Below are positions 1,935 through 20,035 of a stretch of DNA of 64,000 nucleotides, piece by piece. This DNA is from Acidithiobacillus sp. HP-2 (GTDB taxonomy: Bacteria > Pseudomonadota > Gammaproteobacteria > Acidithiobacillales > Acidithiobacillaceae), in contig NZ_JACKZA010000008.1 in NCBI RefSeq assembly GCF_015100155.1, positions 1 to 64,000 of the forward strand. The letters are read 5' to 3'. Under the pieces are notes generated by a model that saw only the letters and a program-made list of their open reading frames with translations, was not told where the DNA came from and did not search any database. Position 1 is the stretch's first letter, and every line of letters starts with the position of its first letter. The translations under genes were made by a program, and so were the position numbers.

Positions 1935-2567
1935 ATGTCAGAGTGTAAAGTTGTGTCGGTAATTGCAGAAAAAGGAGGTGTGGGCAAGACTACAGTTGCC
2001 TTGACTCTTGCTGTGGCTGCTGTTCAAGCAGGCAACAAGGTTGCCGTGTTTGACCTTGATCCTCAAGCAACTGCAACACAATGGACCGATCGTCGTGAAG
2101 CCGAATTTCCATGGGTTGTTGCAATTCCATCGACTCGTTTGTCGGTTTCTTTAGAAAACGCCAAGGCACAAGGCGTAAATTTTGTGGTGATTGATACGCC
2201 TCCCCATGCAGGAAGTGCTTCTGTAGAAGCTGTTCGATATTCAGACTTAACGGTAATACCCGTAGAACCTCACTTATATACTATTGAAACACTACCAAAA
2301 CTAAATGACATAATAAGATTGGGTGGGGATCGGCCGGCTTTATTCTTAATAAGTAAAGCAGCAACACAGGGTAAAGAAGGATTAGATGCCGCAACATACA
2401 TTACGAAACAAGGGTTTAATGTCTGTCCTACAATCCTTCACCTCCGCGCAGCACATCGACATGCGGGAAATGTCGGCATGACAGCACAAGAGTATGAACC
2501 AAAAGGGAAAGCTTCGGAAGAATCTAACCTTGTATACATGTATACATTATCGCTTTTAACCATTTAG
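1935..2567 (+). CDS. parA: ParA-family partition ATPase
   Basis: A 210-residue ParA/Soj-type ATPase. The deviant Walker A motif EKGGVGKTT lies at about residues 12-20. The Walker A' segment VFDLDPQATATQW follows, and the Walker B region is FVVIDTPPHAG. The length fits the short plasmid ParA class without an N-terminal DNA-binding domain. In this class the ATPase moves plasmid copies along the nucleoid with a small ribbon-helix-helix partner and a centromere site. The gene for such a partner starts ten bases after the stop. Start ATG at 1935. Base composition is AT-rich, like the next two genes and unlike the flanks. The C terminus after KASEESNLVYMYTL looks somewhat irregular. Confidence 0.9.
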   Translation: MSECKVVSVIAEKGGVGKTTVALTLAVAAVQAGNKVAVFDLDPQATATQWTDRREAEFPWVVAIPSTRLSVSLENAKAQGVNFVVIDTPPHAGSASVEAVRYSDLTVIPVEPHLYTIETLPKLNDIIRLGGDRPALFLISKAATQGKEGLDAATYITKQGFNVCPTILHLRAAHRHAGNVGMTAQEYEPKGKASEESNLVYMYTLSLLTI

Positions 2568-4043: not shown

Positions 4044-4076
4044 GAAATTTTCCAACAAGGGGATAGAAATCACATA

Positions 4077-4306
4077 GCAGGTTATCCAGGTCGCACATAG
4101 CAGGTTATCCAGGTCGCACGTCATTTTTAGGCAGGTTATCCAGGTCGCGAGTTTTGCTAAAGGCAGGTTATTCAGGTCGCGGGTTTCGCTAAAGGCAGGT
4201 TATTCAGGTCGCGGGTTGTGATCAAAAAGAAATTAGCGATCGTGATCACCACAATTTATAGCCAAACACACTGTAAAATATATACATAGCAGGTTATCCA
4301 GGTCGC
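4077..4306 (+). repeat. Six 18-bp iterons, probable origin of replication
   Basis: Six direct copies of GCAGGTTATYCAGGTCGC start at 4077, 4100, 4131, 4163, 4195 and 4289. Four are identical, with C at the variable position, and the copies at 4163 and 4195 have T. Start-to-start spacing is 23, 31, 32, 32 and 94 bases, so most copies lie on the same face of the helix. The array follows the initiator gene and is succeeded by AT-rich sequence (4220-4390) that could be the unwinding region. This is the usual layout of an iteron-controlled theta origin. Confidence 0.9.
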
Positions 4307-5849: not shown

Positions 5850-6032
5850 CTCGAAAACTCCATTTTTTTGACGGATGAAGAAAATAAAGGCAAAGAAAAC
5901 GCTCAAAAAAAAGGTTTTTGAAAAGACGTAATGACATTATCTGGCTGTTTCTATGTGGAAGAAAATGTGGATACAATCATCCAAAATTCTCTTTAGATAA
6001 GCTGACGAATCAGTAGCACTGTGAGAAAAACA

Positions 6033-6329: not shown

Positions 6330-6420
6330 AACCTTACGCGGAATGGCACGCGCTTGTGTTGCGCCGGTTATGGGAATTCCCTACATTGGCCAGACACGTA
6401 TCCTAAAAAAAGAGGTTCTG

Positions 6421-6696
6421 ATGAACAAAACCGAATTTATTGCTGCCCTGGCCCGTCATGGGGAGATGTCCAAAGTGGATGCGGAAAAATGTTTTCAGGT
6501 GTTCCGTCATACGTTGGAAACGGAATTGCCTGCGGCCGGTAAAATCACTTTTCCCGGATTCTGTACGTTTGAAATCGTGGACAAACCCGCGCGTAAGGCC
6601 CGGAATCCCGCTACGGGACAGGAAATTGAAGTACCTGCCAAGAAAAGTATCAAGTTCAAGGCGGGGAAAGAGTTTGCCGGGAAAGTGAATCACTGA
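6421..6696 (+). CDS. HU/IHF-family DNA-binding protein (second copy)
   Basis: A 91-residue histone-like protein. MNKTEFIAALARHGEMS forms the first helices, FPGFCTFEIVDKPAR gives the GxF-type turn, and RNPATGQEIEVPAKKSIKF is the DNA-binding arm. The frame is open upstream to 6343, but AGAGG before the ATG at 6421 and the family length decide this start. It resembles the first copy only moderately, so it is not a recent duplication. Two HU-like genes in a row may form a heterodimer, as HU alpha/beta and IHF do. That is an inference from gene order. Confidence 0.88.
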   Translation: MNKTEFIAALARHGEMSKVDAEKCFQVFRHTLETELPAAGKITFPGFCTFEIVDKPARKARNPATGQEIEVPAKKSIKFKAGKEFAGKVNH

Positions 6697-6716
6697 GGAA
6701 CAGAAAAGGAGAAAAC

Positions 6717-7064
6717 GTGACTGAAGGGAAAAAACGGGTGCGGCGCACTCCGGAACAGCGTCTGGCCGATCTGGAGAAAAAGCAGACGGAGATTCTGGAA
6801 CGCCAGAAAGCGGCACTGGCCAGAATCGAGGCGGCGAAAAAACGGTTGATGCAGACTCCGTCAGCTCGTAAGAAAAACGTAGCGCAGGAAAAACGCTTTG
6901 TGCGGGCGGCTGAGGCATTAGCTCCGGAATGGGATTACCGTCACTTTATCGCGGCTATTGAAAAAGCCCTTCAGGAAGATCCACAGGCCTTGCAGGAACG
7001 GGGGGAAGCTTTGTTGGAAGAACATGGCAAGGCCCGGCGGGGACGGCGACCAAAGGTCCATTAA
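6717..7064 (+). CDS. Charged coiled-coil plasmid protein, hypothetical
   Basis: A 115-residue, highly charged protein starting at a GTG 20 bases after the HU gene, with AAAGGAG as ribosome site. The first half (RRTPEQRLADLEKKQTEI and on through ARIEAAKKRLMQT) is a clear coiled coil. The second half is helical, with a basic tail ending KARRGRRPKVH. MobC-like and other plasmid accessory proteins have this make-up, but no diagnostic motif is present. It is the last gene before the IS21-family element and may belong to the transcription unit of the HU genes. Confidence 0.6.
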   Translation: MTEGKKRVRRTPEQRLADLEKKQTEILERQKAALARIEAAKKRLMQTPSARKKNVAQEKRFVRAAEALAPEWDYRHFIAAIEKALQEDPQALQERGEALLEEHGKARRGRRPKVH

Positions 7065-7252
7065 GCATGCGGTCAGGGTAGGGGGCCGCAGGGGGAATGG
7101 TCCTGGTCCTGACTCGGCGTACTATGAAAACTGTCACGGGTCGGCAATATGGCGCCATTGCAGGGTCACCATAATGGTGCCACCTGCGGCTTAGTTATCA
7201 GGGTCTCGAACTTCTATTGGATCGGTTACCTTCCTCACTTTTGGAGGGAACC

Positions 7253-8797
7253 ATGAGCAACAGGAGATTTGAGATGTTTACGATTCGTCAGATTTTGGTG
7301 CGGATGCGCCAAGGCGACACCGACCGCAGTATTGCCCGTGCTGGACTCATGGGCCGTAAGAAATTGGGGCTGTTGCGGCAGCAAGCTGCACAAAGGAACT
7401 GGCTGGATCCTCGGCAGCCATTGCCCGAGGATGCCGAGATGGCGGTGGCCCTACAACGGCCGCCAGAAGGTCAACCACCCCAGCGTCTCTCCAGCCTCAG
7501 AGAGCATGAGGAACGCATCACCGCGTGGGTAGCCCAAGGTATTCAGGGGACCACCATTCATGCAGCACTGGTGCGGCAGTATGGCTTTGGCGGTAGCTAT
7601 TCCGCCGTTAAACGGTTGATTCGTGGGATTCATGCAGCCGAACCCCCTCGCGTCACCTCCCGACTGACCTTCACTCCGGGGGAAGCGGCCCAGGTGGATT
7701 TCGGTGCGGGTCCGCTACTGGCCGATCCCAGAACAGGAGAATTACGCAAGACGTGGTTTTTTGTGATGACCTTGTGTTGGTCGCGACATCAATATGCGGA
7801 GTTCGTTTGGGACCAGAAGGTGATGACGTGGCTCGCTTGCCACCAGCATGCTTTTCGCTGGTTTGGAGGCGTACCCAAGCGGGTGATTATTGATAATGCC
7901 AAATGCGCCATTACGAAGGCTTGTATCAATGATCCGGTGGTACAACGGGCTTATGGCGAATACGCTGAGGGGTATGGTTTCCGGGTCGATCCCTGCCCAC
8001 CTCATGACCCGCAAAAAAAGGGTATCGTGGAATCGGGTGTGAAATACATCAAGCGATCCTTTTTGCCCTTGCGGGAGTTTCGCCACCGTGATGACGCCCA
8101 GCATCAGCTTCAGGAATGGGTGCTGGGCGAAGCGGGCAACCGGATCCATGGCACGACCAGAGAGGTGCCACTCAACCGCTTTGCCGAGGTCGAGCGGCCC
8201 TTACTGCAACCGTTACCGGAGAACCCGCCAGAAATCTCCGAATGGGCTCGCCCAAAGGTCTATCGCGACGGGCATGTCCAATACAATCGTTGCTATTATT
8301 CCGTCCCCTTCCGATTTGTTGACCAGCAGCTCTGGTTGCGTGCCACCTACACCACTGTCCGAATTTATTGGGAACAGGCCTTGATTGCTACGCATCCACG
8401 GCTCTTTCAACCGGGCAGCTTTGCCACCGTCCGGGATCATCTGCCACCGGAGGCCCAAGCCTGGCAGACTCAGGACATCCAATGGTGTTTACGCATGGCA
8501 GAAGGTGTCGGCCCTCATTGTCATGCGGTGGTTCATCAGCTCTTTGCTGACCGTCAACTCGTCTATTTGCGCACGGTGCAGAATCTCTTGCGTCTCCGCG
8601 AGAAGTACAGTCCGCAGCGGTTGGAGAATGCTTGTGCACGAGCGGTGCATTACGGGAATGCGCGCTATAAGCCCATCGCTGAGATCCTGAAGAAAGGGCT
8701 TGATCAGGAACCACTCACTCCGGTCGACATTCAGAACGACAGCACCTATACGCGCGGTGGCCGTTTCCTGCGCGACAGCAGAAACCTTTTTCATTGA
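7253..8797 (+). CDS. istA: IS21-family transposase IstA
   Basis: A 514-residue transposase. The N-terminal helix-turn-helix (FTIRQILVRMRQGDTDRSIA and what follows) is followed by the integrase-like core: AQVDFGAGPL carries the first aspartate, RVIIDNAKCAI the second, and GIVESGVKYIKRSF the catalytic glutamate. The C-terminal part has the beta-barrel seen in the family. ATG at 7253 with GGAGGG upstream is preferred over a TTG at 7217 in the same frame. IstA acts with the ATPase IstB encoded 12 bases downstream. No break is seen. Confidence 0.93.
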   Translation: MSNRRFEMFTIRQILVRMRQGDTDRSIARAGLMGRKKLGLLRQQAAQRNWLDPRQPLPEDAEMAVALQRPPEGQPPQRLSSLREHEERITAWVAQGIQGTTIHAALVRQYGFGGSYSAVKRLIRGIHAAEPPRVTSRLTFTPGEAAQVDFGAGPLLADPRTGELRKTWFFVMTLCWSRHQYAEFVWDQKVMTWLACHQHAFRWFGGVPKRVIIDNAKCAITKACINDPVVQRAYGEYAEGYGFRVDPCPPHDPQKKGIVESGVKYIKRSFLPLREFRHRDDAQHQLQEWVLGEAGNRIHGTTREVPLNRFAEVERPLLQPLPENPPEISEWARPKVYRDGHVQYNRCYYSVPFRFVDQQLWLRATYTTVRIYWEQALIATHPRLFQPGSFATVRDHLPPEAQAWQTQDIQWCLRMAEGVGPHCHAVVHQLFADRQLVYLRTVQNLLRLREKYSPQRLENACARAVHYGNARYKPIAEILKKGLDQEPLTPVDIQNDSTYTRGGRFLRDSRNLFH

Positions 8798-8809
8798 GAG
8801 GCATACACC

Positions 8810-9604
8810 ATGCAAACCCAAGAATTACTTTATGCTCTACGCTCCTTGCGTCTATCCGGGGTACTGGAGACCCTGGAAGCCCGTAATCGCCAGGCGATCG
8901 ACGGGCAACTCGCCTACACCGAATTTCTCGCGCTTTTACTTCAGGATGAAATGGCCCGCAGGGACCAAAAGAAATTCGACACGCTCTTACGCCAAGCCCG
9001 GTTTCGCAACCACAAAACACTGGAGGATTTTGCCTTTGATCGCCTGCCGACCTTAAATCGCAGCATGGTGCACGAGCTCGCCACAGGCCGCTATCTCCAG
9101 GAGAAAGCCCCTGTGCTCATCGTTGGGCCCTGTGGTACGGGCAAGAGCCATCTCGCGCAAGCGCTGGGCCACAGCGCTGTCCGCCAAGCTGTTGATGTGC
9201 GATTCCTCACGCAAAGTGAATTGGTGGGTGGTCTCCATGCGGCTCGGGCTACGGGTACCTATGACAAGGTTTTCCGGCAGTGGGTCAGAGTCTCTCTCCT
9301 GATCGTGGATGATTTTGGACTCAAGCCATTGCGACCGCCCCATGATGAGGACTTTCACGACCTCATCGCCGAGCGCTATGAACAGACCACAACTATGGTG
9401 ACCAGTAACCTGGATTTTAACGAATGGGGAGACGTCTTTCCCGCTAACCGAATGCTGGGCGTAGCCACGCTGGATCGGTTACGGCACGGTGCTTACCGAC
9501 TCATCCTGGAAGGGGAAAGTTACCGCACGCCAAGGCCCTGCCAGAGGACCCGAAAAGGACGGTTGCGAAACACCCAAAAATCGCCCAATCTTGACCCTGT
9601 TTGA
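8810..9604 (+). CDS. istB: IS21-family ATPase helper IstB
   Basis: A 264-residue AAA+ ATPase of the IstB/DnaC type. An N-terminal helical region (LYALRSLRLSGVLETLEARN) precedes Walker A GPCGTGKSHLAQALG and Walker B SLLIVDDFGLKP. The sensor segment TTMVTSNLDFNEWGDVF follows. It starts 12 bases after istA, with GAGAGG as ribosome site. The second position of Walker A is Pro-Cys rather than the usual Pro-Pro or Pro-Thr, a minor change. It helps IstA choose the target and assemble the transposition complex. Confidence 0.93.
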   Translation: MQTQELLYALRSLRLSGVLETLEARNRQAIDGQLAYTEFLALLLQDEMARRDQKKFDTLLRQARFRNHKTLEDFAFDRLPTLNRSMVHELATGRYLQEKAPVLIVGPCGTGKSHLAQALGHSAVRQAVDVRFLTQSELVGGLHAARATGTYDKVFRQWVRVSLLIVDDFGLKPLRPPHDEDFHDLIAERYEQTTTMVTSNLDFNEWGDVFPANRMLGVATLDRLRHGAYRLILEGESYRTPRPCQRTRKGRLRNTQKSPNLDPV

Positions 9605-9678
9605 GACCCCGATTTTGACACTTTGAAATGGCGCCATTATGCCGACCTTCGGTGGCGCCATATTGCCGGCCCGTGACA

Positions 9679-10132
9679 GTCCCTTCAGAAAACGGAATAT
9701 AAAACCCGTTAAGCTCCTGCGAAGGGCCTCAGCGGCCGATATTTTCCCTGCCTGGGGGTGTAAGCCGGAACCCCAGAAAATTCCGTCGGGAAACATCGGC
9801 GGCAGAGTTTCCGAGCATCGCACCTGACCGACATGGTTTTCCGACAGCCCGCACCAGAGCGGGGTTTTGGTCTTTTTTTCAAATCATCTGGGAGGCGTTT
9901 CACACAAAACTCCAGAGCAGGTTTTTCAAGTTTGACGTAAAAATCTGAGGTTCAGGCTTACACCCCCATGACGGAGAGCAAGGTGGCATCGGCCAGGAAA
10001 CTTCTGGATAACGGCACACCACGCAGAGAGGTCGCGGAGCACCTCGAGGTATCCTTGCCGACGCTCTATCGCTGGATTCCAGGAGCATCGCGCCCTTAAC
10101 GGGTTTTATATTCCGTTTTCTGAAGGGACCCC
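9679..10132. mobile_element. Short Tn3-family remnant bounded by two terminal repeats
   Basis: A 454-bp segment lies between a right-pointing Tn3-type terminal repeat (9679-9713, which starts GTCCCTTCAGAAAACGG and ends CCCGTTAAG) and its complement at 10095-10132. The complement is the full 38-bp form starting GGGG on the other strand. The left repeat lacks the first three G because the IS21 element abuts it. The first 120 bp are nearly identical to 53967-54087 at the second Tn3 remnant. The interior carries only a resolvase tail, so this is a non-autonomous, MITE-like derivative. Confidence 0.85.
9968..10099 (+). pseudogene. tnpR: Resolvase (TnpR) C-terminal fragment
   Basis: An open frame of 43 residues reads TESKVASARKLLDNGTPRRE, then VAEHLEVSLPTLYRWIPGAS, ending at a TAA that lies inside the 38-bp terminal repeat. 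This is the C-terminal helix-turn-helix that Tn3-family resolvases use to bind the res site. The catalytic N-terminal domain with its serine is absent. The sequence just before it (about 9945-9966) is an inverted copy of part of the left end, which suggests a deletion and inversion created the fragment. Confidence 0.75.
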
Positions 10133-10234
10133 TAATACAATACCGGAAACGGGAATACGTCCGGTGCTCCACAAGCACTGATTAGCCCCTGGCCGCCTGA
10201 GTCATTCAGGCACTTTGCACAGAGGGCTTAGATC

Positions 10235-10492
10235 ATGGAAAACCTCACAGATTTAACCGAGATCAACGAAGCGCAATATTTTGATGTGGACCGGACTGAC
10301 AGCTCCGGTGCGGCGGCGCTCGACGGCATTACAGCGATTCTGTCCGTTCTTCGTGGCGATGTATCGAATGACAGATGCGCTGATTGTACTGGTAGGCCAG
10401 CGGTACGCCTAAGTCCATATACAGCGGGTGGCCTCATCGAGGCTATTGAAGTGCTGACGGAAGTCGCGAGAACCGAATTGGACGGCAGTTGA
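10235..10492 (+). CDS. Small acidic hypothetical protein
   Basis: An 85-residue acidic protein with no recognised family. It starts at an ATG preceded by GAGGG. It contains a CADC pair (DRCADCTGRPAVRLSPYTAG) that could bind metal, and a C-terminal helix GGLIEAIEVLTEVARTEL. It lies between the Tn3 remnant and the heptamer array upstream of the ParB-like gene, on the same strand. No function can be assigned. Confidence 0.5.
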   Translation: MENLTDLTEINEAQYFDVDRTDSSGAAALDGITAILSVLRGDVSNDRCADCTGRPAVRLSPYTAGGLIEAIEVLTEVARTELDGS

Positions 10493-10507
10493 GAAAAGGG
10501 GAGAGGC

Positions 10508-10670
10508 GTCTGACTGCCTGTCAGACAGCACGGTTTTTTTGTCTGACCAAGCGTCTGACACCCCGTCAGACAATGCTGTCGGACGCCCTGTCCGACGCTT
10601 TTTATTTCACCACACCTGACGCACCAAAGGTGCAGTTTTTAGACCCCGTCCAGATGGCTGGATGTCGGAC
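10508..10670. promoter_or_regulatory. Eight GTCNGAC heptamers upstream of the ParB-like gene
   Basis: The palindromic heptamer GTCNGAC occurs at 10508, 10520, 10541, 10553, 10565, 10578, 10590 and 10664, each 7 bp long. N is T, A, T, T, A, G, C and G in that order. Most start-to-start distances are near 12 bases, with one of 21. Such phasing suggests cooperative binding of a regulator or a ParB-like protein to its own promoter region. The repeats are seen directly. The binding role is inferred. Confidence 0.7.
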
Positions 10671-10739
10671 AATCAATAGGTTGCGCGTCTGTCAGTAGGT
10701 TTGCTAAAACGGTTGTTATTCTTGTAAGGAGGCTTTTTT

Positions 10740-12140
10740 ATGAGCACACAAGCATTGGCCCAGACCCAGATCAATAACCGGGAAATCCGCTACGCCAGAG
10801 TTGAGCGGTTTACCGGCATTGAAAGCGTCATTCAATTGATGCCCCCCAGAGACAACGGGCGACCCGAGTTCACTACCCTGCTCGACAGTGCTCGGGAAAT
10901 GGGCATCCTGAATCCGGTTGTCGCCATTGAGCATAATGACGGCGCGCTGTATGTCATTGACGGATACATGCGGATAATGGTCGGAGATCGGCTGGGACTG
11001 CAGCAGATTCCCTACATCCACACGCCGTTAAATCCCGATGATCCCGCCGTAGTGGACATGGCCGCCCGTCTCAATTGGTCTCATCGCCATCTTTCGGATT
11101 TTGAAAAGGTCTGGGTGATTGGGAACCACTATATCAGTGAAAAACAGAGAGAGGGCGCACCAAGTGGTAATTTGAATGCAGCCAAAACAACGGTGCCAAA
11201 TGACACCGTTGTTTCCTCAACATCGGCGGATGGCCGTACAAGAGAAAAGCTTGCAGATCTTTATCATGTTGGTGCGCGTACCGTTCATCGCTACGGCAAC
11301 ATGGCCAAGGTCTGCCGCAGCATCATCCGCGTGCTGGCCGGACAGCTGCAGATCAGCGAGGAAGATGCTACATCGCGCTTCTTCGATTTGTGGAAGGACA
11401 CCCAGCGCGGCAAACATGTCGATCTCAGTGTGCTTTCCAAAATCAGCTATCGGCTGGTGGAATACGGAACCATTGATGACCCGGATCCCTGGATTCGGCA
11501 GGCTTTCAGCGCCTACGCTGTGGATCTCGCCCGATTTCCCAAAGATTCCGCAGCGCATGAATATGCATTGCCCAATCTGAGAGCGGAAGGATTGATCCTG
11601 GCCACCTTTGCGGAACTCGAAAAGACCCTACCCCCCAAAAAGGGAACAGAACAATGGACCCGACAAAATAAGGCCGCACCGACACAGACAAAATCCGGAG
11701 AATATCTGCCAGCAGAAAAAAACATGGGACAGCCTGAAGCAGCGATCGTTGAGGAAATTCCGTCTATTCCAGAAGATTCATCGCCCATCAACCACATTCA
11801 GCAGCGTGCCGTTCAGTTTCAGTCTGGGGTCTCTGCCATGCAGCACCAACTGGATAACACGTTGACGGCATACATCCCCAATCTGACCCGGCTAACAGAC
11901 GATCTGATCCAGATCATGGAAGACAACTGGAAAGAGGACTTCAACAGCGCCAATAAAGCGTTGCGGCCTACCTGGGAAGACATATCCCGCTTTTATCGAT
12001 CTCTGAACCTCAAAAAAGGCATTTTGCTGGAAGTGATGGAGGCAGACCGGGATGCCATCACCCGACTGCGTAGCCGTCTGGAAAAACTCGCGGAGCTGGT
12101 CAATAGCAGGATGCCGGAGATTAGCAGCGGACTGTTCTAG
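10740..12140 (+). CDS. ParB/RepB-domain protein
   Basis: A 466-residue protein with a ParB N-terminal domain. The segment LLDSAREMGILNPVVAIEHNDGALYVIDGYMRIMVGDRLGLQQIPYI (read here in parts: GILNPVVAIE, then YVIDGYMRIMVGDRLG) matches the ParB/Srx core, with the Asp-Gly-Tyr/Arg turn in place of the usual DGxRR. A helix-turn-helix region follows (TREKLADLYHVGARTVHRY). The C-terminal half is helical and unassigned. Ribosome site AAGGAGG precedes the ATG. No parA lies next to it, so it may be a regulator or CTP switch of the plasmid rather than a partition protein. The heptamer array upstream is its likely binding site. Confidence 0.8.
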   Translation: MSTQALAQTQINNREIRYARVERFTGIESVIQLMPPRDNGRPEFTTLLDSAREMGILNPVVAIEHNDGALYVIDGYMRIMVGDRLGLQQIPYIHTPLNPDDPAVVDMAARLNWSHRHLSDFEKVWVIGNHYISEKQREGAPSGNLNAAKTTVPNDTVVSSTSADGRTREKLADLYHVGARTVHRYGNMAKVCRSIIRVLAGQLQISEEDATSRFFDLWKDTQRGKHVDLSVLSKISYRLVEYGTIDDPDPWIRQAFSAYAVDLARFPKDSAAHEYALPNLRAEGLILATFAELEKTLPPKKGTEQWTRQNKAAPTQTKSGEYLPAEKNMGQPEAAIVEEIPSIPEDSSPINHIQQRAVQFQSGVSAMQHQLDNTLTAYIPNLTRLTDDLIQIMEDNWKEDFNSANKALRPTWEDISRFYRSLNLKKGILLEVMEADRDAITRLRSRLEKLAELVNSRMPEISSGLF

Positions 12141-12447
12141 CGACTAAATCCTCCGTAACCATTATTGCGATACGTTACTGTTACGGCGTAACGACAGTCA
12201 CAGAGTTTCGTGACTGGTCGCAAATAGGGTTTTTCGGGAGACACTTGGGCGCATTTTGGGCAATGTGGTCAAATCTGCCCCATTCAAAGACCAAAAACCA
12301 GCATGGATAATGGCTTCAGAGCCAGTCAGACCAGCGGATTAACAATCCGGGGGTCTGTGAAACAGCCGTTACCGTAACGATTGCGGCAGACCTCCCAAAA
12401 TAGGGTTGTTCGTGATGCTTCCGTGAAACTTGCTGTAGCAAGTCCCC
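12141..12447. other. Intergenic with inverted repeats between convergent genes
   Basis: No gene. It contains CAGTCAC-8-GTGACTG (12195-12216), repeated GTTAC/GTAAC words around 12170-12195 and 12365-12380, and ACTTGC-TGTA-GCAAGT (12428-12443) at the end of the GGDEF/EAL gene. These could act as terminators for the converging genes, though none has a strong T-run. Confidence 0.45.
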
Positions 12448-15400
12448 TCATAACTCCTCATCGGCCGGGCGATGATGCTTCGATGAATAGGCATCGAGAA
12501 TGGCTTCTCCCAGCGCGTTTTGTGCTTGTTCCATAATGCACCAGTCTAAAGCTTCTAGAGAGACTGATAATTGGCGGATCATCTCTGCGAGGGCTTTGTG
12601 GTACTCCCTATGACGCTGATCTAATGGGCTTCCTTCTGATACACCCAGATGCTGCATCGCCCTGTGTAATGGACAAACGCCAGGATCTACCATCTCTTTA
12701 TAATTCATCAGCCGAAGATTCTGGCGCATGGTTTTTTCCAGGACGCTGTGGAGGCTGAGATGAAGGGCGTATAGCCCCAAAAAGGTATGAGGATAAGTCG
12801 ATCGCTCAATGGCTGGGCGCCGCAAGAATTGCTGTAGTTCTTTCATGGGCAAGGGCCTAGCAATAGCGTATCCCTGTAAAAGGGAGACGCCTGCAACCGT
12901 GACCGCATCCAGGATGTCTTCTGTTTCCACCCCTTCTACAACCAGAGTCACCCCTAAACTGGTAGACAGATCCTGCACCGTATTCACAAAATAAAGATCT
13001 CGGGGTTGTTTCTCCAGTGTGCGAACAAAAGCCTGATCCAGTTTGATTTTATCAAAAGGCAGTGTTTTTAAGCGCAGGAGTGAACCATAGGCGCTGCCGA
13101 GATCATCTAATGCCAGATGAACACCGAACCGTTTCATTTCAAGAAGATGCTCTATGGACGAGGACTGCTCCAGGAAGTCATCTCCTTCAAGAATTTCCAG
13201 GGTAATACGGGATGGATCGATGCGGGTTGGCGCAATCAGTGCCCTTAAACATTCTACGCATTCGGCAGAAACGGAATGCGCATCAAGATTGACGGATACC
13301 CATAAGGAATATCCTTGCCCGTCCAGAACCGCAAGATCCACCAATGCTTGTGAAAGCACGCCCTTCGTCAATGTAGTAAGGTCCATGGTCTTTAATTCCG
13401 GTAAAAAGCGAGCAGGGGTCCAAAGCTTCCCCTCGGTATCTCTTAAGCGTGCCAACGCCTCTAATCCAACAATCTTCCGGGTAAAATTATCAAGAATGGG
13501 TTGATACCAGACCTCCAGTGCGCCGTTATCCAGCAGAACCTGTGCCGGATTACGCTGATCTGGATGGAGATCTTCGCCGAAAACCATCCAGCAATTCTCC
13601 CGATCCGCTTTGTGGGCTTTGATTTCATAGAGCGCCTGATCAGACCAGCGCAGCAGCTGATCTGCTTGGTCTGTATCAGCAGTAGGATAGAGCGCGATAC
13701 CCATGCTTGCCCCAACCTGAACGCTTTCACCATTACTCAGACGGATGGGTACGGTGATGATCTCCTCAATCTTTTTCAGGAGTTGCGCAAGGTCTGCATG
13801 CCCCGCCAAATCTTCCAGCAGGAGCACGAATTCATCCCCTCCGTAACGGGCGATAAAATCGGTTTTGCGCAACGTATTAGACAAACGTTTACCCAGCATC
13901 ATCAGCACTTCATCGCCTATCTCATGACCATAGGTGTCATTGATTGGTTTGAAATTATCCAGATCGAGCATACAGACCGCCAAAAGACGATTGTGCCGAA
14001 TGGCTCGGAGCATGGCTTGCTCCATCTGCGTTTCCAGGAAACGCCGGTTGGGCAATCCCGTAACCAGGTCGGTCCTGGCGAGCTGCGCCTCCTGTTCCTG
14101 CAGAAAACGCAGACGCTCCTTGAGGTCATATTCGTCCAGGCTGTGACCCAGCAAGGAGGCTGCGCGCTCACAGGCGGTGATGGTGTCACTATCGAAAACC
14201 GGTTCCGTGGAAATAAACGTTATGACGACGAAGGGTTTTCCATCTCTCCATACAGGAGTCGCTAATGCCGAACTCCATCCGAATGTAGCGAGTATCTGTC
14301 CCCACGGACGGTCTGCCTGTGAAGAAGAGAAATCGGAATGTACGATGGTTTTCTGCTCGCTCCATGCGCGTGCAGAAAGGCAAGAAGGATCGTCCACGTA
14401 GATTTGGAACGGTTGCATCTTCTCGACTCCGGGACCCGCCCCAGCTAGCACCTGCACTCTTCCCTGCGGGTCAGGGCGCACAACGCCGATGGTATGAAAG
14501 ACCTCCATGTCCACGAGCTGGGTGCAGGTAGTTTCCAGCATGTCCTGTACATCACGCCCCTGCAAAAGGAGATCCGCTTCCACGGACAAAGCCTGATAGA
14601 TCTTCTGCTGTTTCTTTAGCTGCTGTGCCTGCTGCACCGACTCCGTCACATCCACCATGGTCCAGATGGAGGTCTCCTGATCCTCCAGCAACGTCCCGAA
14701 TGCGTCGATGAGCAGTGGTTGTTGATCGGCATGAGAGAATGCGATACGGCGGACAACGGTCGTTCCCGTTTGGAAGAGCTCGGAATAGGCCTGTCCAACC
14801 CGTTCCCAGTTTGCCTCATCAGGGTAAAGTAACCGGGTGTCTTGCCCGATCATGCGCTCTAGCGACAGACCCATCATGTCTGCCATATGCTGGTTGCACT
14901 GCACGATGTGGCGTTGGCGCACTACCATAATCCCCACCGCCGCGTTGTCCAGCAGTGTCTGGAGAAGATTCCTGTTTTCGCGTTCCTGGGTGATGTCCTG
15001 TTGCAGGCCGATGAATCCGGTCAATGTACCTTGATCATTGAGAACAGGATCAATGTGCAAACGATTCCAGAACAAAGTGCCGTCCTTGCGCTGGTTGAGG
15101 ATGTCTCCGGTGTAGGACTGTTCCTGCGCCAAAGCAATGGCAATCTCCCTGACAGTCTGTGCATCGGTCTGCCGGGTTTGCAGAAACTTGCAGTCGCGTC
15201 CAAGTACTTCTTCCTCTGTGTAGCCGGTGAGTTTCAGAAAAGCTTGGTTGGTATAGACAAAGTGTCTTTGTGGGTCAGCAATGGTGACGCCGCCATCCAG
15301 CGCCTCCACCGAGGCGCGCAAAAAGCGCAACCTCTGCATATCCTGCAGTCGCTCCAGACCCCGACTGATCTGGAGGGACATTTGTTGCAGAATGGTCCGC

Positions 15401-15837
15401 AGGACATCGTCGAATGGGGTTCCATCGCCGCTATAGACCGATAAAAGTGCCCAGACCTTTCCGTTGCGGAAAAGGGGCAGTATTGCGCTGGCGGTCAGTC
15501 CATAGGCCAGTGCACGCTCTTTCCAAGGGGTCAGAAATGGCGCGTTTGCAAAATCATTGTCGATATAAGCGCGCGCCTCGCGCCAAGCACTCCCTGCGGG
15601 GCCTTGCCCTTCTGGAATCTGCGCATCACTGGAGATGAACAGATCTTTGAGGTAGTCCACTTGTCCGGCAGTAGCCAGAAACTGAAATCGCCCCTGTGCA
15701 TCTGGTCGGGAAATAAAGGCTAGCTTCAGATCGGCTTGCTGCACGGCAATTTCGCATAGGTGTTGTAGCAGTACAGACTCGTCTTCAGCGACAGAAATGG
15801 TCAGATGGATTTGGGTCAGGAGAGTGTTTAGGGCCAT
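12448..15837 (-). CDS. GAF-LOV-PAS-GAF-GGDEF-EAL cyclic-di-GMP protein with CZB-like tail
   Basis: A 1129-residue cytoplasmic sensor. Domains in order: GAF (about 10-165); LOV-type PAS (about 173-287) with GRDCKFLQ around Cys216, the two flavin-contacting asparagines in LNQRKDG and FWN, and the glutamine in GFIGLQQD; a second PAS (292-405); a second GAF (410-570); GGDEF (590-750) with intact GGDEF at 666-670 and an inhibitory RKTD five residues before it; EAL (765-1005) with EAL at 793-795, DDLGSAYGSL and VVEGVET. The tail has His1026/1030, Cys1055, His1076 and His1080, spaced like a zinc-binding CZB domain. Both catalytic domains look able to act. The gene stands alone in the plasmid-like part. 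Confidence 0.9.
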   Translation of the reverse strand: MALNTLLTQIHLTISVAEDESVLLQHLCEIAVQQADLKLAFISRPDAQGRFQFLATAGQVDYLKDLFISSDAQIPEGQGPAGSAWREARAYIDNDFANAPFLTPWKERALAYGLTASAILPLFRNGKVWALLSVYSGDGTPFDDVLRTILQQMSLQISRGLERLQDMQRLRFLRASVEALDGGVTIADPQRHFVYTNQAFLKLTGYTEEEVLGRDCKFLQTRQTDAQTVREIAIALAQEQSYTGDILNQRKDGTLFWNRLHIDPVLNDQGTLTGFIGLQQDITQERENRNLLQTLLDNAAVGIMVVRQRHIVQCNQHMADMMGLSLERMIGQDTRLLYPDEANWERVGQAYSELFQTGTTVVRRIAFSHADQQPLLIDAFGTLLEDQETSIWTMVDVTESVQQAQQLKKQQKIYQALSVEADLLLQGRDVQDMLETTCTQLVDMEVFHTIGVVRPDPQGRVQVLAGAGPGVEKMQPFQIYVDDPSCLSARAWSEQKTIVHSDFSSSQADRPWGQILATFGWSSALATPVWRDGKPFVVITFISTEPVFDSDTITACERAASLLGHSLDEYDLKERLRFLQEQEAQLARTDLVTGLPNRRFLETQMEQAMLRAIRHNRLLAVCMLDLDNFKPINDTYGHEIGDEVLMMLGKRLSNTLRKTDFIARYGGDEFVLLLEDLAGHADLAQLLKKIEEIITVPIRLSNGESVQVGASMGIALYPTADTDQADQLLRWSDQALYEIKAHKADRENCWMVFGEDLHPDQRNPAQVLLDNGALEVWYQPILDNFTRKIVGLEALARLRDTEGKLWTPARFLPELKTMDLTTLTKGVLSQALVDLAVLDGQGYSLWVSVNLDAHSVSAECVECLRALIAPTRIDPSRITLEILEGDDFLEQSSSIEHLLEMKRFGVHLALDDLGSAYGSLLRLKTLPFDKIKLDQAFVRTLEKQPRDLYFVNTVQDLSTSLGVTLVVEGVETEDILDAVTVAGVSLLQGYAIARPLPMKELQQFLRRPAIERSTYPHTFLGLYALHLSLHSVLEKTMRQNLRLMNYKEMVDPGVCPLHRAMQHLGVSEGSPLDQRHREYHKALAEMIRQLSVSLEALDWCIMEQAQNALGEAILDAYSSKHHRPADEEL

Positions 15838-16072
15838 GGTTTTCGCTTTCGTCTGTGCACCTCCACCCTATGACTTATATGGAATCGGGCAATGAACGCT
15901 AAGAAAGGTTCAGAGGTAGCATGAAATGGTTTGTTCTTGGTCTACAGGACAGAATGCGTCATTCTGTCTCGTAGTCCCAAAACCCTGAACGGCAGATCGC
16001 CCGGTTTTGCTCGGTTCTTCTGCCACCCACGAGGGCCGATTATGGGACATTACGTTGGGTCTACTTATTTGG

Positions 16073-16411
16073 TCATTCCAAAATGGCCTGTATTTTGGTT
16101 ATCACTTCGTCGACTATGGAATCTGGGACCATCTCAACAAACTTGCCATCTCTTGCCATAAGGTCAACGGTGCGGGATTGGTTACTCATCACTATCCCCT
16201 GTGTTTTTGTTCCAGACTCCATCAAAGAGACTGCAAAGCCCGCGAATCGAGCTTGATTGCCACCTTGGGTGATAGGGCTGACCCAAACCAGGCCAGAGCG
16301 ATTGAAGGCTTCTCTCGATATGATCAGCATAGGGCGATGACCTTGCTGCTCACGGCCTGAAGTCGGGCTGAGATTTGCCTGCCAAATCTCCCCTCGCCGT
16401 GGCCACCGCAT
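16073..16411 (-). CDS. MazF/PemK-family toxin
   Basis: A 112-residue PemK/MazF-type endoribonuclease. RRGEIWQANLSPTSGREQQGHRPMLIIS matches the family (parts: RRGEIWQANL and GREQQGHRPMLII). VSPITQGG and later VMSNQSRTVDL follow, holding the catalytic arginine loop and the QxR segment. Toxins of this family cut mRNA at short sequences. The ATG at 16411 overlaps the antitoxin stop by one base. A TTG just before it is an alternative. With the upstream gene it forms the second toxin-antitoxin pair in the plasmid-like part. Confidence 0.88.
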   Translation of the reverse strand: MRWPRRGEIWQANLSPTSGREQQGHRPMLIISREAFNRSGLVWVSPITQGGNQARFAGFAVSLMESGTKTQGIVMSNQSRTVDLMARDGKFVEMVPDSIVDEVITKIQAILE

Positions 16412-16665
16412 CAAATTTCCTCAATGCCTACGGATGGCGCGTCTATCCATTCGCGCTCCTCGGTGCTTATGGGCTGAGTGAAGTCACATTGTGATAGCAA
16501 TTCGTCCAAGGTGTAACGCTTTTGTGCTGGTCGTGCTACCAGTGCGCCGTTTTCAATCTTCAATGAGACGGCTTGACCCTCGCCGACGCCCCAACTCCGT
16601 ATAGTCGTGGCGGGTATGCGTAGGGCCATGCTGTGTCCCCACTTCTGAATTTTGGTCTGATTCAT
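16411..16665 (-). CDS. MazE/ChpBI-family antitoxin
   Basis: An 84-residue antitoxin with an AbrB-type swapped-hairpin DNA-binding N terminus: KIQKWGHSMALRIPATTIRS, then GVGEGQAVSLKIENGALVARPA. The acidic C terminus (ISTEEREWIDAPSVGIEEI) would occupy the toxin cleft. It precedes and overlaps the MazF-like gene, as usual. The ATG at 16665 follows a GGCACACTC stretch with no strong ribosome site. It is expected to repress its own promoter, which lies in the AT-rich DNA around 16680-16760. Confidence 0.85.
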   Translation of the reverse strand: MNQTKIQKWGHSMALRIPATTIRSWGVGEGQAVSLKIENGALVARPAQKRYTLDELLSQCDFTQPISTEEREWIDAPSVGIEEI

Positions 16666-16757
16666 GAGTGTGCCCCGTGTTTAATGAATAAACATTGTAG
16701 ATTCAATTCGATTGTGGTGCAAGCCTCTGAGGGAAACTTATGGACAGATTTTCTGAT

Positions 16758-16774
16758 TGACATGATATATGTCA
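16758..16774. promoter_or_regulatory. Palindromic operator TGACAT-N5-ATGTCA
   Basis: TGACAT (16758-16763) and ATGTCA (16769-16774) form a perfect inverted repeat with a GATAT spacer. A third half-site TGACATAT lies at 16791-16798, between the palindrome and the ATG of the KfrA-like gene at 16818. This arrangement fits autoregulation by the helix-turn-helix protein encoded just downstream. Confidence 0.6.
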
Positions 16775-16817
16775 ACAACATTACACTAAATGACATATAC
16801 GGTTAACAGGTGAAGAC

Positions 16818-17231
16818 ATGTCTTTTGTTACGGTAACGCATGCTGCAAAATTGGCAGGAGTCAGTCGCCAATATCTTTACAAGGCTTACATAAATACAGG
16901 GAAAATAAGCGTTGAAAGGGATCCAAGCGGAGCCCCTCTGATTGAAACATCCGAACTTATTAGAGTTTTTGGGGTTTTGGAAGGGAAATTTTCGGAGAGA
17001 CAAGAAGGCGACAATAATTTACATGAAATGACGCAAGAAAATGTTGTTGACATCAAGGTGTTGGAGGTCGAGCTTGCTGCAAAAGATGAAGTTATTCGCC
17101 GTTTGGAGCGGCAAATAGCTGAGGGAGGAGAGCGCGAAGTGTGGCTGCGTCAACAGCTTGAGAGGGCGCAGGCGGTATTGACCGACCAAAGGACAACAGA
17201 AAAGCGTCGATGGTGGCAGTTTTGGGGCTAA
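16818..17231 (+). CDS. KfrA-like helix-turn-helix and coiled-coil plasmid regulator
   Basis: A 137-residue protein. The N terminus (VTVTHAAKLAGVSRQYLYKA) is a MerR/KfrA-like helix-turn-helix. The middle is a heptad-rich coiled coil (LEVELAAKDEVIRRLERQI, then LRQQLERAQAVL). The C terminus is the unusual aromatic tail RRWWQFWG. AGGTGA serves as ribosome site. Proteins of this plan act as plasmid-encoded DNA-binding and nucleoid-like factors. The palindromic operator just upstream suggests autorepression. The same aromatic tail ends the truncated replicase about 0.8 kb downstream. Confidence 0.7.
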   Translation: MSFVTVTHAAKLAGVSRQYLYKAYINTGKISVERDPSGAPLIETSELIRVFGVLEGKFSERQEGDNNLHEMTQENVVDIKVLEVELAAKDEVIRRLERQIAEGGEREVWLRQQLERAQAVLTDQRTTEKRRWWQFWG

Positions 17232-17463
17232 TCTTGCCGAATAGAGGCTCTCGGGCGTAGTCTCAGAGGATTAATAACAACCGAAGGTATTACCCATGAT
17301 AGAAATGGTAATGCCCCGTAACCTGACAGTCTGGGCAGACAAAGGTATACGGGGCATCGCAAGTCCGGCGACCGACAGGTCCAGTATAGCCACCCTTGGC
17401 TATGCAATCAAAGCCTAGCCTGTCCGATCCCCATGCAGAGCATGAGCGCGATCGGGGGCTTTG

Positions 17464-18009
17464 ATGGGCAGATTTGATCCCACAGCCTCCTGTGTTCTTG
17501 ACCGCTTTGCCGAACACCTGCCCCATAAGCCGTATTGCACGGATGACCTGACTGCAGGCCTGCAAATCCGGTCCTTAAAAACCGCCTTACAACGCGCTTA
17601 CATCCAGCACAACCACCCCGGCATGATCTGGGCCATGGTCTATGACGTGGACCGTGCCTGTGTGAATCCGACAGACTGGTGGCCGATCTGGGAAAGTGTT
17701 GGACTGCCTGCGCCCAACATGGCCGTCATGAATCACCGGACAAAGCGTGGCCACCTGATTTATCTGCTGGAGGCGAGTGTATGCCGGACGGAACTCGCGC
17801 GCCTCAAACCCTTGCGCTACATCGCCAGCATTGAGCGGGCCTATACCGCCGTTTTGGGTGCGGACCCTGGTTATGCTGGCCTCATCTGCAAAAACCCCTT
17901 TAACGACCGCTGGCAGGTTTGGGAGATCCACAGCAACCCGTACACGCTGGACGAGCAGGCCAGTAGCCAAGTTGCCATGAGAAAATCGTGGTGGCGATTT
18001 TGGGGATGA
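17464..18009 (+). CDS. ColE2-type replicase, C-terminally truncated
   Basis: A protein of 181 residues matching the N-terminal primase-like domain of ColE2-family Rep proteins. Visible segments are the LDRFAEHLPHKPYCTDDL region, then WAMVYDVDRACV with its paired acidic residues, APNMAVMNHRTKRGHLIYLL with the conserved histidine, LKPLRYIASIERAY and YAGLICKNPFN. The family is normally near 300 residues, with a C-terminal DNA-binding domain that is missing here. After NPYTLDEQASSQVAM the frame ends in RKSWWRFWG, which resembles the tail of the KfrA-like protein upstream. The ATG at 17464 follows a G-run. The C terminus was probably replaced by recombination, so origin binding is doubtful. Confidence 0.8.
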   Translation: MGRFDPTASCVLDRFAEHLPHKPYCTDDLTAGLQIRSLKTALQRAYIQHNHPGMIWAMVYDVDRACVNPTDWWPIWESVGLPAPNMAVMNHRTKRGHLIYLLEASVCRTELARLKPLRYIASIERAYTAVLGADPGYAGLICKNPFNDRWQVWEIHSNPYTLDEQASSQVAMRKSWWRFWG

Positions 18010-18048
18010 GTGGCTTGTTTGGTATCAGAAGCGATATATTAAATCATA

Positions 18049-18162
18049 GCTGACAAGAAGCTCGTTGATGAAGTTCATCATATTTCCAGAAAGCGAGGGA
18101 ATGGGCAGCTGCGCCGGGAAGTGTGGGTGGATGAAAGGGGCGAAGTAACGCGGTACAACCTA
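18049..18162 (+). pseudogene. tumE: TumE-type (DUF6516) toxin, 5' part, split by IS630
   Basis: This 38-codon fragment joins exactly, in frame, to 19334-19510 once the IS630-family element and one TA copy are removed. The joined protein (GQLRREVWVDERGEVTRYNL, then AYISHAICAVDNGRV and YDNQPGYHHRHYLG) belongs to the TumE/DUF6516 toxin family. The antitoxin gene follows it. No ATG, GTG or TTG opens the frame at the expected place. An ATA at 18046 is the likely former start, preceded in frame by a TAA. The gene may already have been dead, or is mis-started, apart from the insertion. Confidence 0.75.
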
Positions 18163-19249
18163 GTGTAGTGTTGCATTCTGTTTGCTGCTTAAGTGGCTAT
18201 TGGCGCGAATGACCTTTTGCAGGATGTCGCGGGCGGTTTTGGTCCAGATGAAGGGTTTGGGATGGGTGTTGTGGTGGTCGATGTACCCCTCAATGGCCTG
18301 GATGAGTTCAGGCACACTGGTGAACGCCCCACAACGTAACCGCTGGGTCGTGATATCCCGAAAGAAACGCTCGACCATATTGAGCCAGGATGCCGAAGTG
18401 GGCGTGAAGTGCATGTGAATACGCGGGTGCTTGTCGAGCCACGCCTGTACTACCGGGTGTTTATGGGTCGCATAGTTGTCGGCGATCAGATGCAGAGCCT
18501 TGTCCCTGGGCGTCTGCCGATCAATTTTCTTCAGGAACTTCAGCCATTCCACATGGGTATGGCGCTGTTGACACTGTCCGATGACCTGACCATCCAGCAC
18601 GTTGAGTGCGGCAAACAAGGTCGTAGTGCCATTACGTTTGTAGTCGTGGGTCATCGTTTCTGCGCGGCCCTTTTTGAGGGGGAGTCCCGGTTGGGTCCGG
18701 TCCAGGGCCTGTACCTGACTTTTTTCATCCACGCAGAGCACCAAGGCATGCTCCGGGGGAGACATATACAACCCCACAATATCTTCCAGCTTTTCCACAA
18801 AATGCGGGTCTCGTGACACCTTGAAACCACGCAGCAGATGAGGCTTGAGGCCATGCTTGCGCCAATGCCGCGACACACTGGCGGCACTGACACCCAGTTC
18901 TGCCGCCATCCTGCGCGTACTCCAATGCGTCATCGCTTCCGGCTTACTCTGCGTGGTCAATTCTACCAGACGGGCCACATCCATTTTCACCGGAGGGGCG
19001 CCGCGCGGTAAATCGCGTTCAATGCCCGACAAGCGGTGTTCCAGATAACGCTTGCGCCAACGTGCGACTTGCAGGCAGGCGATCCACCCCCAGGCGCTCC
19101 GCAATTTCCTTGTTCTGCAAGCCCTCTGCCGCCAGCAATATCATCCGTGCCCGTAATGACAAGCGGACACTGCTTAATCGGGAGGAGACTATACGGGACA
19201 ACTCGGACCGCTCTTCGCTGGTTAAAGTGACTGTGGGCGCAACTCGCAA
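18160..19249 (-). pseudogene. IS630-family transposase, frameshifted by a 4-base duplication
   Basis: Two frames together encode one transposase. The first (from ATG 19249) has the helix-turn-helix LQNKEIAERLGVDRL. The second continues QVARWRKRYLEHRLSGIERD and holds the DDE triad in LVLCVDEKSQ, HLIADNYATHKHP and WLNMVERFFRDI. The break lies at about 19078, where GCCTGCCTGC on the minus strand holds a tandem repeat of four bases. Removing one copy restores the continuous reading DRLQVARWRKRY. The stop TAG uses the flanking TA. Some IS families use programmed frameshifting, but a 4-base duplication points to simple inactivation. Confidence 0.85.
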
Positions 19250-19331
19250 GGCTCGACTCCATTCATACCCTCAACATGGAGCTATTTTATCATCATTAAC
19301 CTTAAGGTTCACCAAGAATGCAACACTACAC
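18163..19331 (-). mobile_element. IS630-family insertion sequence inside tumE
   Basis: An 1169-bp element with perfect 17-bp terminal inverted repeats, GTGTAGTGTTGCATTCT at 18163-18179 and its complement at 19315-19331. It is flanked by the TA dinucleotide on both sides (18161-18162 and 19332-19333), which is the target preference of the family. It is inserted in the tumE toxin gene and carries one frameshifted transposase gene on the minus strand. Confidence 0.93.
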
Positions 19332-19333
19332 TA

Positions 19334-19510
19334 GCCTATATCAGTCACGCGATATGCGCCGTGGATAATGGTCGTGTTGTGGGATACGACAACCAGCCCG
19401 GATACCACCATCGTCATTATTTGGGGGATATGCACCCGATAGATTTTGTCAGTTTTGAGGAAGTCGAAGCACGTTTTGAAGAGGATTGGATGGCCTTAAG
19501 GAGGCAATAA
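19334..19510 (+). pseudogene. tumE: TumE-type (DUF6516) toxin, 3' part
   Basis: The 3' part of the split toxin: 58 codons from GCC at 19334 to TAA at 19510, reading AYISHAICAVDNGRVVGYDN, then QPGYHHRHYLGDMHPIDFVS and a helical end FEEVEARFEEDWMALRRQ. The HHRH segment and the flanking YDN are the conserved part of the family. The antitoxin gene begins two bases after the stop. Confidence 0.75.
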
Positions 19511-19511
19511 A

Positions 19512-19877
19512 ATGTTACTGCAGGTAGCCAATGAAAAAATGTTCTTTGAACGGGGTAGGAAGATTGCTCGTACAGCGGATGCCAGACAGTCCATTTCCGA
19601 AGAAAAGATCATTAGTTTTGAAGGCGCCGCAGACTTGCTGCATTTGCTGACTACGGCCCGGCTTGCACTGATGCAAGTGGTGTTAGAGAGACCACTTTCC
19701 ATTACAGAGATTTCGGAACGTCTTGGGCGGGATCGTAGTGCTGTGAAGCGGGATATAGATTTATTAGCGGATTCCGGACTGGTTATCGTGGAGGAAAAAC
19801 CGTTGCCTGGTCACGGACGAAAAAAAGAAGTGAGGCCTGCCGCGCATTCTCTTCGCCTGGAGGCTGTATTAGCGTGA
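19512..19877 (+). CDS. tumA: TumA-type winged-helix antitoxin
   Basis: A 121-residue protein with a winged helix-turn-helix of the kind paired with TumE toxins. LMQVVLERPLSITEISERLG, then RDRSAVKRDIDLLADSGLV, gives the DNA-binding helices, and VEEKPLPGHGRKKEV the wing. The N-terminal region (FERGRKIARTADAR) would contact the toxin. AAGGAGG sits in the end of tumE, so the two genes are coupled. With the toxin split it is an orphan antitoxin and could still neutralise related toxins. The gene converges on the broken efflux operon, and its 3' end overlaps the remnant DUF1656 frame. Confidence 0.8.
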   Translation: MLLQVANEKMFFERGRKIARTADARQSISEEKIISFEGAADLLHLLTTARLALMQVVLERPLSITEISERLGRDRSAVKRDIDLLADSGLVIVEEKPLPGHGRKKEVRPAAHSLRLEAVLA

Positions 19878-20035
19878 CTGGGCATCTTCGTTTTGATCGT
19901 TATGTGTAGCGGCTTACAATCCAGATCCCAACGACTGGTCCATTTGTCCACGATCAGATACAGCATGACGCTCAGCCCAAAAACAGGCAAAAGGGTGGGC
20001 AGCACAGCACCAAAGAGAACTATTTCAACGGGCAT
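19811..20035 (-). pseudogene. DUF1656 (AaeX-like) small membrane protein, truncated
   Basis: The first 35-40 residues (MPVEIVLFGAVLPTLLPVFG, then LSVMLYLIVDKWTSRWDL) match the DUF1656/AaeX family, which is found beside FUSC efflux permeases. After that the sequence no longer fits: the second membrane segment is missing, and the frame runs on into DNA antisense to tumA until a stop at 19811. The ATG at 20035 overlaps the FUSC stop by 11 bases. The fusion-protein gene that normally follows is absent. The break at about 19.88-19.93 kb marks the edge between the plasmid-like block and chromosome-like DNA. Confidence 0.7.

Follow-up and report, generated by a model that had tools for sequence, protein, structure and literature searches.

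The 64,000-nucleotide stretch of Acidithiobacillus sp. HP-2 analysed here (contig NZ_JACKZA010000008.1, positions 1 to 64,000; hereafter the window) carries at 12448-15837, on the reverse strand, a gene for a 1129-residue GAF-LOV-PAS-GAF-GGDEF-EAL protein. We find that this gene is a chimera, in which a GAF-LOV-PAS-GAF sensor half is joined to a separate GGDEF-EAL output, and that the first PAS domain of the protein is a LOV domain. Our best explanation is that the protein is probably a blue-light receptor of chimeric origin that sets the level of cyclic di-GMP (c-di-GMP), a signal that governs attachment and movement. The protein class is otherwise known; what is new is the documented joining of modules together with an odd flavin pocket.

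Domain architecture

The open reading frame starts with ATG and stays open throughout, without an internal stop. The gene and its parts are as follows.

12448..15837 (-): GAF-LOV-PAS-GAF-GGDEF-EAL-(CZB-like) protein, 1129 aa (open reading frame and Pfam)
15352..15786 (-): GAF domain 1, residues 18-162 (Pfam GAF_2, best of two stretches)
14986..15324 (-): LOV domain, residues 172-284 (Pfam, PDB matches, residue alignment, model, fold comparison)
15190..15192 (-): codon of Cys216, the predicted flavin-adduct cysteine (motif position; conserved in both orthologues)
14632..14970 (-): second PAS domain (PAS2), residues ~290-402, without the LOV cysteine motif (Pfam PAS_8 at 290-342; end inferred from alignment)
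14113..14610 (-): second GAF domain (GAF2), residues ~410-575 (second Pfam GAF stretch; limits inferred)
14029..14040 (-): inferred crossover site between codons 600 and 603, at the GGDEF start (informative-site counts)
13603..14076 (-): GGDEF domain with RxxD inhibitory site (I-site), residues 588-745 (Pfam and motifs)
12853..13542 (-): EAL domain, residues 766-995 (Pfam and motifs)
12487..12795 (-): C-terminal CZB-like domain, residues 1015-1117, with conserved Cys and HxxxH (homologue alignment; no PF13682 match)

No 19-residue window of the protein exceeds a mean hydropathy of 1.56, so there is no clear membrane span, and the protein is probably soluble. A whole-protein model built from the single sequence without an alignment had a pLDDT of 37.0 and was set aside. 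Scanning the surroundings of the gene for promoters and terminators gave 5 and 3 hits compared with 4.1 and 4.1 in shuffles, showing no excess.

The first PAS domain is a LOV domain

Pfam PAS_9 matches two stretches of the protein, the best being residues 183-284. Here the motif GRDCKFLQ (residues 213-220) holds Cys216, and the flavin-ring positions Asn248 (in LNQRKDG), Asn258 (FWN) and Gln279 (GFIGLQQD) are aligned where LOV domains carry them. Among 84 Cys-bearing stretches, the window residue is shared by 83 at Asn248, by all 84 at Phe256, Trp257 and Asn258, and by 78 at Gln279. These counts include the protein's own three orthologue rows and come from an alignment of 116 distinct stretches (domain E < 1e-8, identical ones dropped), 32 of which lack the cysteine and were excluded. 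Most alignment rows come from a set of at least 80 loci fetched by patterns requiring part of the LOV motif, so the residue frequencies lean toward canonical LOV domains.

A published LOV search pattern (PMC4844311) matches at position 197, in the LOV domain, and once outside it at 418. Shuffling the whole protein 2000 times produced a loose spacing pattern of Cys, two Asn and Gln in 10 cases, so profile and fold carry more weight as evidence than the motif by itself. At E <= 1e-8 the domain matches 134 distinct PDB sequences, the best 60 of which supply the sequence-search row given below. The best match is the blue-light receptor YtvA (1e-26), and a Brucella LOV histidine kinase (3t50, 4.8e-26) and a Chloroflexus LOV domain are also among the best. 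A model of the domain built on 51 aligned LOV stretches reached a pLDDT of 96.2. In fold comparison it matched a Meiothermus LOV domain (9vf7) with Z 22.0 and a root-mean-square deviation (rmsd) of 0.9 over 128 residues, and a LOV diguanylate cyclase (8c05) with Z 20.3 and rmsd 1.4 over 126 residues, so that the comparison to solved LOV domains covers nearly the full length of the model. A sequence-only reading of this gene had claimed a full LOV signature of Cys216, two asparagines and a glutamine, and had named a LOV profile search as one of its checks. All four residues are aligned, and LOV photoreceptors lead the PDB matches. Together, these data confirm that the first PAS domain of the window protein is a LOV domain.

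The gene is a chimera

We searched 96 genomes, own included, and found close orthologues of the window gene only in the genomes numbered G011 and G014. In bins of 50 codons, DNA identity to the G011 gene is 77-89% through codon 600 and then 48-73%. Identity to a paralogue in the same genome, C15, runs the other way: 33-54% before codon 600, in the only four bins that could be aligned (codons before 401 hardly align to C15, with fewer than 20 codons per bin), and 85-95% after it, with 64% in the last bin. When 853 informative sites are scored, a single breakpoint fits best between codons 600 and 603, with 305 sites of the integrative and conjugative element (ICE) type to 24 before it and 71 to 453 after it. 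None of 2000 site shuffles, which ignore linkage, reached this score. The output half of the G011 gene is only 68.3% identical in DNA to that of the window gene, and is 86.4% like the own-genome paralogue C33 over residues 585-1000. The breakpoint immediately follows DLVTGLPNRR, where GGDEF starts, and since this stretch is conserved, it is a plausible site of homologous exchange.

Could the chimera be an assembly artefact that fused two similar genes? The genome is a draft of 48 contigs in which GGDEF-EAL genes abound (23 matching places), but this explanation is very improbable: across residues 585-1000 the output half and the C15 copy share 87.7%, not 100%, identity, so the output half is not a collapsed copy, and the reading frame runs open across the join.

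The two halves differ in history. Synonymous divergence (dS) from G011 in the four sensor domains is 0.30-0.56 by NG86 and 0.20-0.42 by YN00. For two housekeeping-like genes of this contig, whose sequences read as glnA and lysS, dS is 1.34-1.69 relative to G011 and G014 and 0.11-0.24 relative to G003 and G004; these two genes are the whole yardstick. Because 0.30-0.56 is below 1.34-1.69, the sensor half split more recently than the two lineages. A LOV sensor cassette has thus crossed species recently and is now attached to a different output. In our explanation, a GAF-LOV-PAS-GAF cassette like those that neighbor conjugation genes in G011 and G014 was joined, at the conserved GGDEF start, to another GGDEF-EAL-CZB-like output, of which the same genome contains a close copy. 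The output swap could have occurred in either gene.

Conservation and relatives of the LOV domain

LOV is the best-kept domain of the protein. It is identical to the G011 orthologue at 100 of 113 positions (88%), compared with 782 of 1129 (69%) for the whole protein, and by either method its dN/dS (0.14 by NG86, 0.23 by YN00) is lower than that of the other three sensor domains. Among the sensor domains, PAS2 has changed most (79 of 111 positions identical, 71%; dN/dS 0.49 by NG86, 0.62 by YN00).

The exact GRDCKFLQ codon pattern occurs in 3 of 17 genus genomes. We surveyed LOV-like stretches more widely in 32 genomes, 21 of them from the genus and family (G000-G020, G000 being the own genome). 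Cys-bearing LOV-like stretches were present in at least 6 of these 21 (G000, G006, G011, G014, G018 and G019), and G022 and G025 each have one LOV-like stretch with the cysteine. In a LOV tree of 60 selected rows, the three orthologues cluster with L028 and L082 (support 99/90). The tree holds seven Cys-less family stretches (L015, L053, L054 and L056 are among those left out), and these seven rows, including the own-genome C31 and C6 paralogues, form one starred group beside Cys-bearing rows; the joining node is not starred (94/75).

The own genome encodes several Cys-less LOV-like PAS domains: L010/L012 (G000:C31), L013/L014 (G000:C6) and L015 (G000:C35). Those of C31 and C6 read SRFGLHHLQG, lie on GGDEF proteins and are nearly alike in that domain.

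The output half

The GGDEF domain has GGDEF at 666 and, five residues ahead of it, RKTD (RxxD) at 657. The EAL domain has EAL at 793, DDLGSAY at 911, KLD at 932, EGVE at 968 and QGY at 988. We take these motifs to mark the active sites and the inhibitory site. Pfam scores are 156.4 bits for GGDEF and 160.1 bits for EAL, both far over the cut-off. As the sequence-only reading had proposed, GGDEF, I-site and EAL look intact.

The C-terminus had gone unremarked. It gave no row for CZB (PF13682) at E <= 1, as whole protein or C-terminus, and the four CZB places listed in the own genome are other loci. CZB zinc ligands are three histidines and one cysteine (PMC8846402). Of 32 related stretches found for the C-terminal domain, 19 were compared; in these, HxxxH is invariant and the cysteine is at least 90% conserved, and the first histidine is not invariant. 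An hhalign comparison with 12 CZB sequences gave a probability of 52.9 and E 1.4e-4. With no match at the Pfam cut-off, we set aside a true CZB domain and call it CZB-like; perhaps it is a divergent metal or redox sensor. CZB-like domains follow EAL in many acidithiobacilli proteins (window 12487-12795 and homologues).

Light as the probable signal, and its alternatives

Judged from its residues, light sensing by the window protein is likely, and several observations weigh against it. In SL2 of Synechococcus elongatus, two arginines contact the phosphate of flavin mononucleotide (FMN; PMC8846402), and by our reading of the alignment they correspond to positions 217 and 233. This usual pair, which does not define LOV domains, is absent from the window protein. 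Position 217 is Lys (6 of 84, versus Arg in 68) and position 233 is Ala (5 of 84, versus Arg in 67). Other pocket residues are also rare: Asp215 before the cysteine (5 of 84), Gln249 (4 of 84) and Thr221 after FLQ (1 of 84). All of these oddities except Thr221 are common to both orthologues, so the window protein and its two orthologues supply three of each count but that of Thr221. The stem leading to the three orthologues is long (0.66 changes per column in the LOV tree), and the EAL end of the G014 orthologue is interrupted by an IS66 transposase gene (L076 9770-11407). No light phenotype of the genus Acidithiobacillus surfaced in the literature searched, which leaves most subscription papers outside.

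The main rival is that the LOV domain binds flavin but senses redox state or oxygen, in the manner of NifL or MmoS, so that light has no biological role. The FAD-binding PAS domain of NifL (2gj3) matches the model with Z 18.8, and the PDB "sensor protein" 3ewk, which we take to be MmoS, matches at 4.8e-22 in row 33 of the best 60, above many phototropin rows; both matches count against a light sensor. The host genus oxidizes iron and sulfur, G011 has a protoglobin GGDEF-EAL-CZB gene two genes away from its LOV gene, and the own-genome Cys-less paralogues use the fold without the cysteine. Most PAS domains of Acidithiobacillus c-di-GMP enzymes have been grouped with oxygen and redox sensors (PMC6416229). 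However, Cys216, both asparagines and the glutamine are conserved in all three orthologues, and the top rows are photoreceptors, with redox PAS domains first appearing at row 33 in the PDB sequence search and at rows 50 and 41 in two further match lists. On this evidence we regard a redox sensor as unlikely.

A second alternative, that LOV is photoactive or vestigial but uncoupled while PAS2 and GAF2 carry the real signal, is less probable still. Two domains lie between LOV and GGDEF, the different histories of the sensor and output halves could break coupling, and the G014 orthologue is disrupted. Yet conservation is strongest in LOV, on which purifying selection acts, whereas PAS2, at 71%, is the sensor domain with the weakest conservation. 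A search of the own genome for BLUF, at E <= 0.001, found none.

In the favored reading, a blue-light receptor, a flavin (FMN, or riboflavin or FAD) would occupy the LOV domain, and blue light would form a Cys216-flavin C4a adduct. The hydrogen bonds of Asn248, Asn258 and especially Gln279 to the flavin would then shift, and this change would pass through the flanking helices, or the helix after the DIT motif, to PAS2-GAF2 and on to GGDEF/EAL. Light would raise net phosphodiesterase output, lower c-di-GMP and favor release or motility, as in SL2. This direction is a guess by analogy, with the chances about even. Blue-light-positive phosphodiesterases in Table 1 of PMC8846402 include SL2, RmcA, BlrP1 and two BldP, and the LOV-GGDEF fragment of a Mesorhizobium loti LOV-GGDEF-EAL protein gives less c-di-GMP in blue light (PMC9098866). 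Against it, LOV-activated cyclases (LadC) raise c-di-GMP in light (PMC10396304), as does the Qipengyuania flava LOV pathway in blue light (PMC10267684).

Genomic setting

The gene lies in a block with these plasmid-type features.

1935..2567 (+): ParA-type ATPase (Pfam; plasmid homologues)
2931..4043 (+): plasmid replication initiator, Rep (52.7% identity to replication proteins of A. ferrooxidans plasmids)
4077..4306 (+): six iteron-like direct repeats (GCAGGTTATYCAGGTCGC), immediately following Rep
16073..16665 (-): MazF/PemK-like toxin and MazE-like antitoxin pair, upstream of the LOV gene (Pfam)

The window thus holds what defines a plasmid replicon, Rep with iterons and ParA. A weak ParB-like gene at 10740-12140 (ParB_N 16.8 bits versus a cut-off of 26.3) was found in 4 of 30 genomes. 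The far end of the same 169-kb contig carries genes that read from sequence as housekeeping-like, which means that either integration or assembly has placed the block in a chromosomal-looking contig. The ends of the contig show no terminal overlap, a tRNA scan found none in any part of it, and an Rfam scan of the window found none. A search for the block edge using the FUSC gene (5 of 17 genomes) saw no empty site. Two FUSC-family efflux genes of the same genome, at window 20025-22208 and G000:C14:38595-40775, are 91% identical. Near the block edge, at 18160-19334, is a transposase-like open reading frame, presumably of IS630 type, with 34-nt inverted repeats at its ends (82% complementary).

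In G011 the LOV orthologue stands between conjugation genes (TrbI, type IV secretion system coupling protein, transglycosylase) and a PilZ gene, which is followed by the protoglobin-GGDEF-EAL-CZB gene (L075 10462-13982; Pfam). The PilZ and protoglobin-GGDEF-EAL-CZB genes also adjoin the orthologue in G014 (L076 12800-16320; by position and sequence). No other gene shared by the window and G011 neighborhoods was noticed, though no systematic comparison was made. Elsewhere in the own genome, G000:C47 has a PilZ match and a GGDEF-EAL-CZB match within ~3.5 kb, and the matches listed at that place include none of LOV type.

We also considered whether plasmid carriage is surprising in itself, and rejected this. 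Of 72,556 plasmid records, 247 carry a stretch like the window LOV at E <= 1e-12, and the adduct cysteine is present in all three checked, from Acinetobacter johnsonii, Halomonas sp. THAF12 and Shewanella sp. LC6. These plasmid proteins of other genera have GRNCRFLQ or GQNCRFLQ and are annotated EAL. Unlike the window protein, they gave no exact GG[DE]EF string by simple pattern, and LOV identity is 45%. Among the best 5000 matches, none of the plasmid records covers 80% of the full-length protein at a single locus. DNA nearly identical to that of window 1-20000 occurs in 27 plasmid records, none covering 80%.

Precedents and significance

The window protein belongs to a known kind, the LOV-GGDEF/EAL proteins, and its plasmid carriage also has precedents. 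Of 1390 bacterial LOV proteins in one census, ~18% carry GGDEF or GGDEF plus EAL (PMC4844311). SL2, a LOV-GGDEF-EAL blue-light phosphodiesterase, likewise has LOV cysteine, GGDEF and EAL in one chain (PMC8846402). The window protein adds a GAF before LOV, PAS-GAF after it and the CZB-like C-terminus, and differs from SL2 in having Lys and Ala in place of the two phosphate-contacting arginines described there. LadC (8c05) shares the LOV fold (Z 20.3) and GGDEF output, but is described without EAL (PMC10396304). PASd of Pseudomonas aeruginosa RmcA is also a LOV-like PAS on a c-di-GMP enzyme and lacks the cysteine (PMC8846402), unlike the window LOV and like the Cys-less paralogues in the genome of the window. 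In Q. flava, a deep-sea sulfur oxidizer, a LOV kinase acts through REC-GGDEF, PilZ and thiosulfate dehydrogenase, so that blue light drives c-di-GMP and thiosulfate oxidation (PMC10267684). The PilZ receptor of that pathway recalls the PilZ gene adjoining the LOV gene in G011 and G014. In contrast to the window protein, LOV there sits on a histidine kinase and the cyclase is a separate protein; light raises c-di-GMP in that pathway (PMC10267684).

The nearest precedent is a GAF-PAS-PAS-GAF-GGDEF-EAL protein listed for A. ferrooxidans ATCC 23270 and ATCC 53993, in the second ICE of each (PMC6416229, Table 3). Its domain order is that of the window protein, and the accompanying set (protoglobin-GGDEF-EAL-CZB, PilZ and conjugation genes) is as in G011 and G014 (PMC6416229). 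The LOV domain of G011 and G014 is 88% identical to that of the window. We take the domain model PRK13558 to be a LOV-bearing one. Because it is listed as a partner in Table 2 of the 2019 study (9 and 15 proteins), LOV hits may stand there unnamed; the ICE protein is listed as PAS, and LOV occurs nowhere in the main text (PMC6416229).

The sequence-only reading held for LOV, for GGDEF, EAL and I-site, and for a plasmid-like block, the last borne out by ParA, Rep, iterons and MazEF on a contig that looks chromosomal. It did not mention the chimera, Lys217 and Ala233, the CZB-like end or the Cys-less paralogues. Its judgment that such a gene would be unexpected stands only in part, given how common LOV-GGDEF/EAL proteins are, the LOV-EAL proteins on plasmids elsewhere, the 2019 ICE listing and Q. 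flava. In the literature searched, no LOV domain is reported for Acidithiobacillus or acidophiles, and no paper was found linking light with iron oxidation, or a photoreceptor with an ICE and a diguanylate cyclase. If photoactive, this would be the first named LOV photoreceptor in acidithiobacilli within that literature.

A broader scenario is possible but rather unlikely: mobile elements of acidithiobacilli may spread a LOV cassette that is re-plugged at the GGDEF start and puts attachment, motility, sulfur oxidation or conjugation under the control of light, and with its altered phosphate site this LOV may use riboflavin or FAD. The experimental value is that one sensor half comes with two natural outputs, those of the window and G011 genes, and with a Cys-less LOV-like set in the same genome, which makes testable the movement of a light input between enzymes by a single crossover. 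Mineral attachment of acidithiobacilli matters for bioleaching and acid drainage. If the scenario is true, rock-oxidizing bacteria would gain a light switch through a cassette re-plugged onto different c-di-GMP enzymes.

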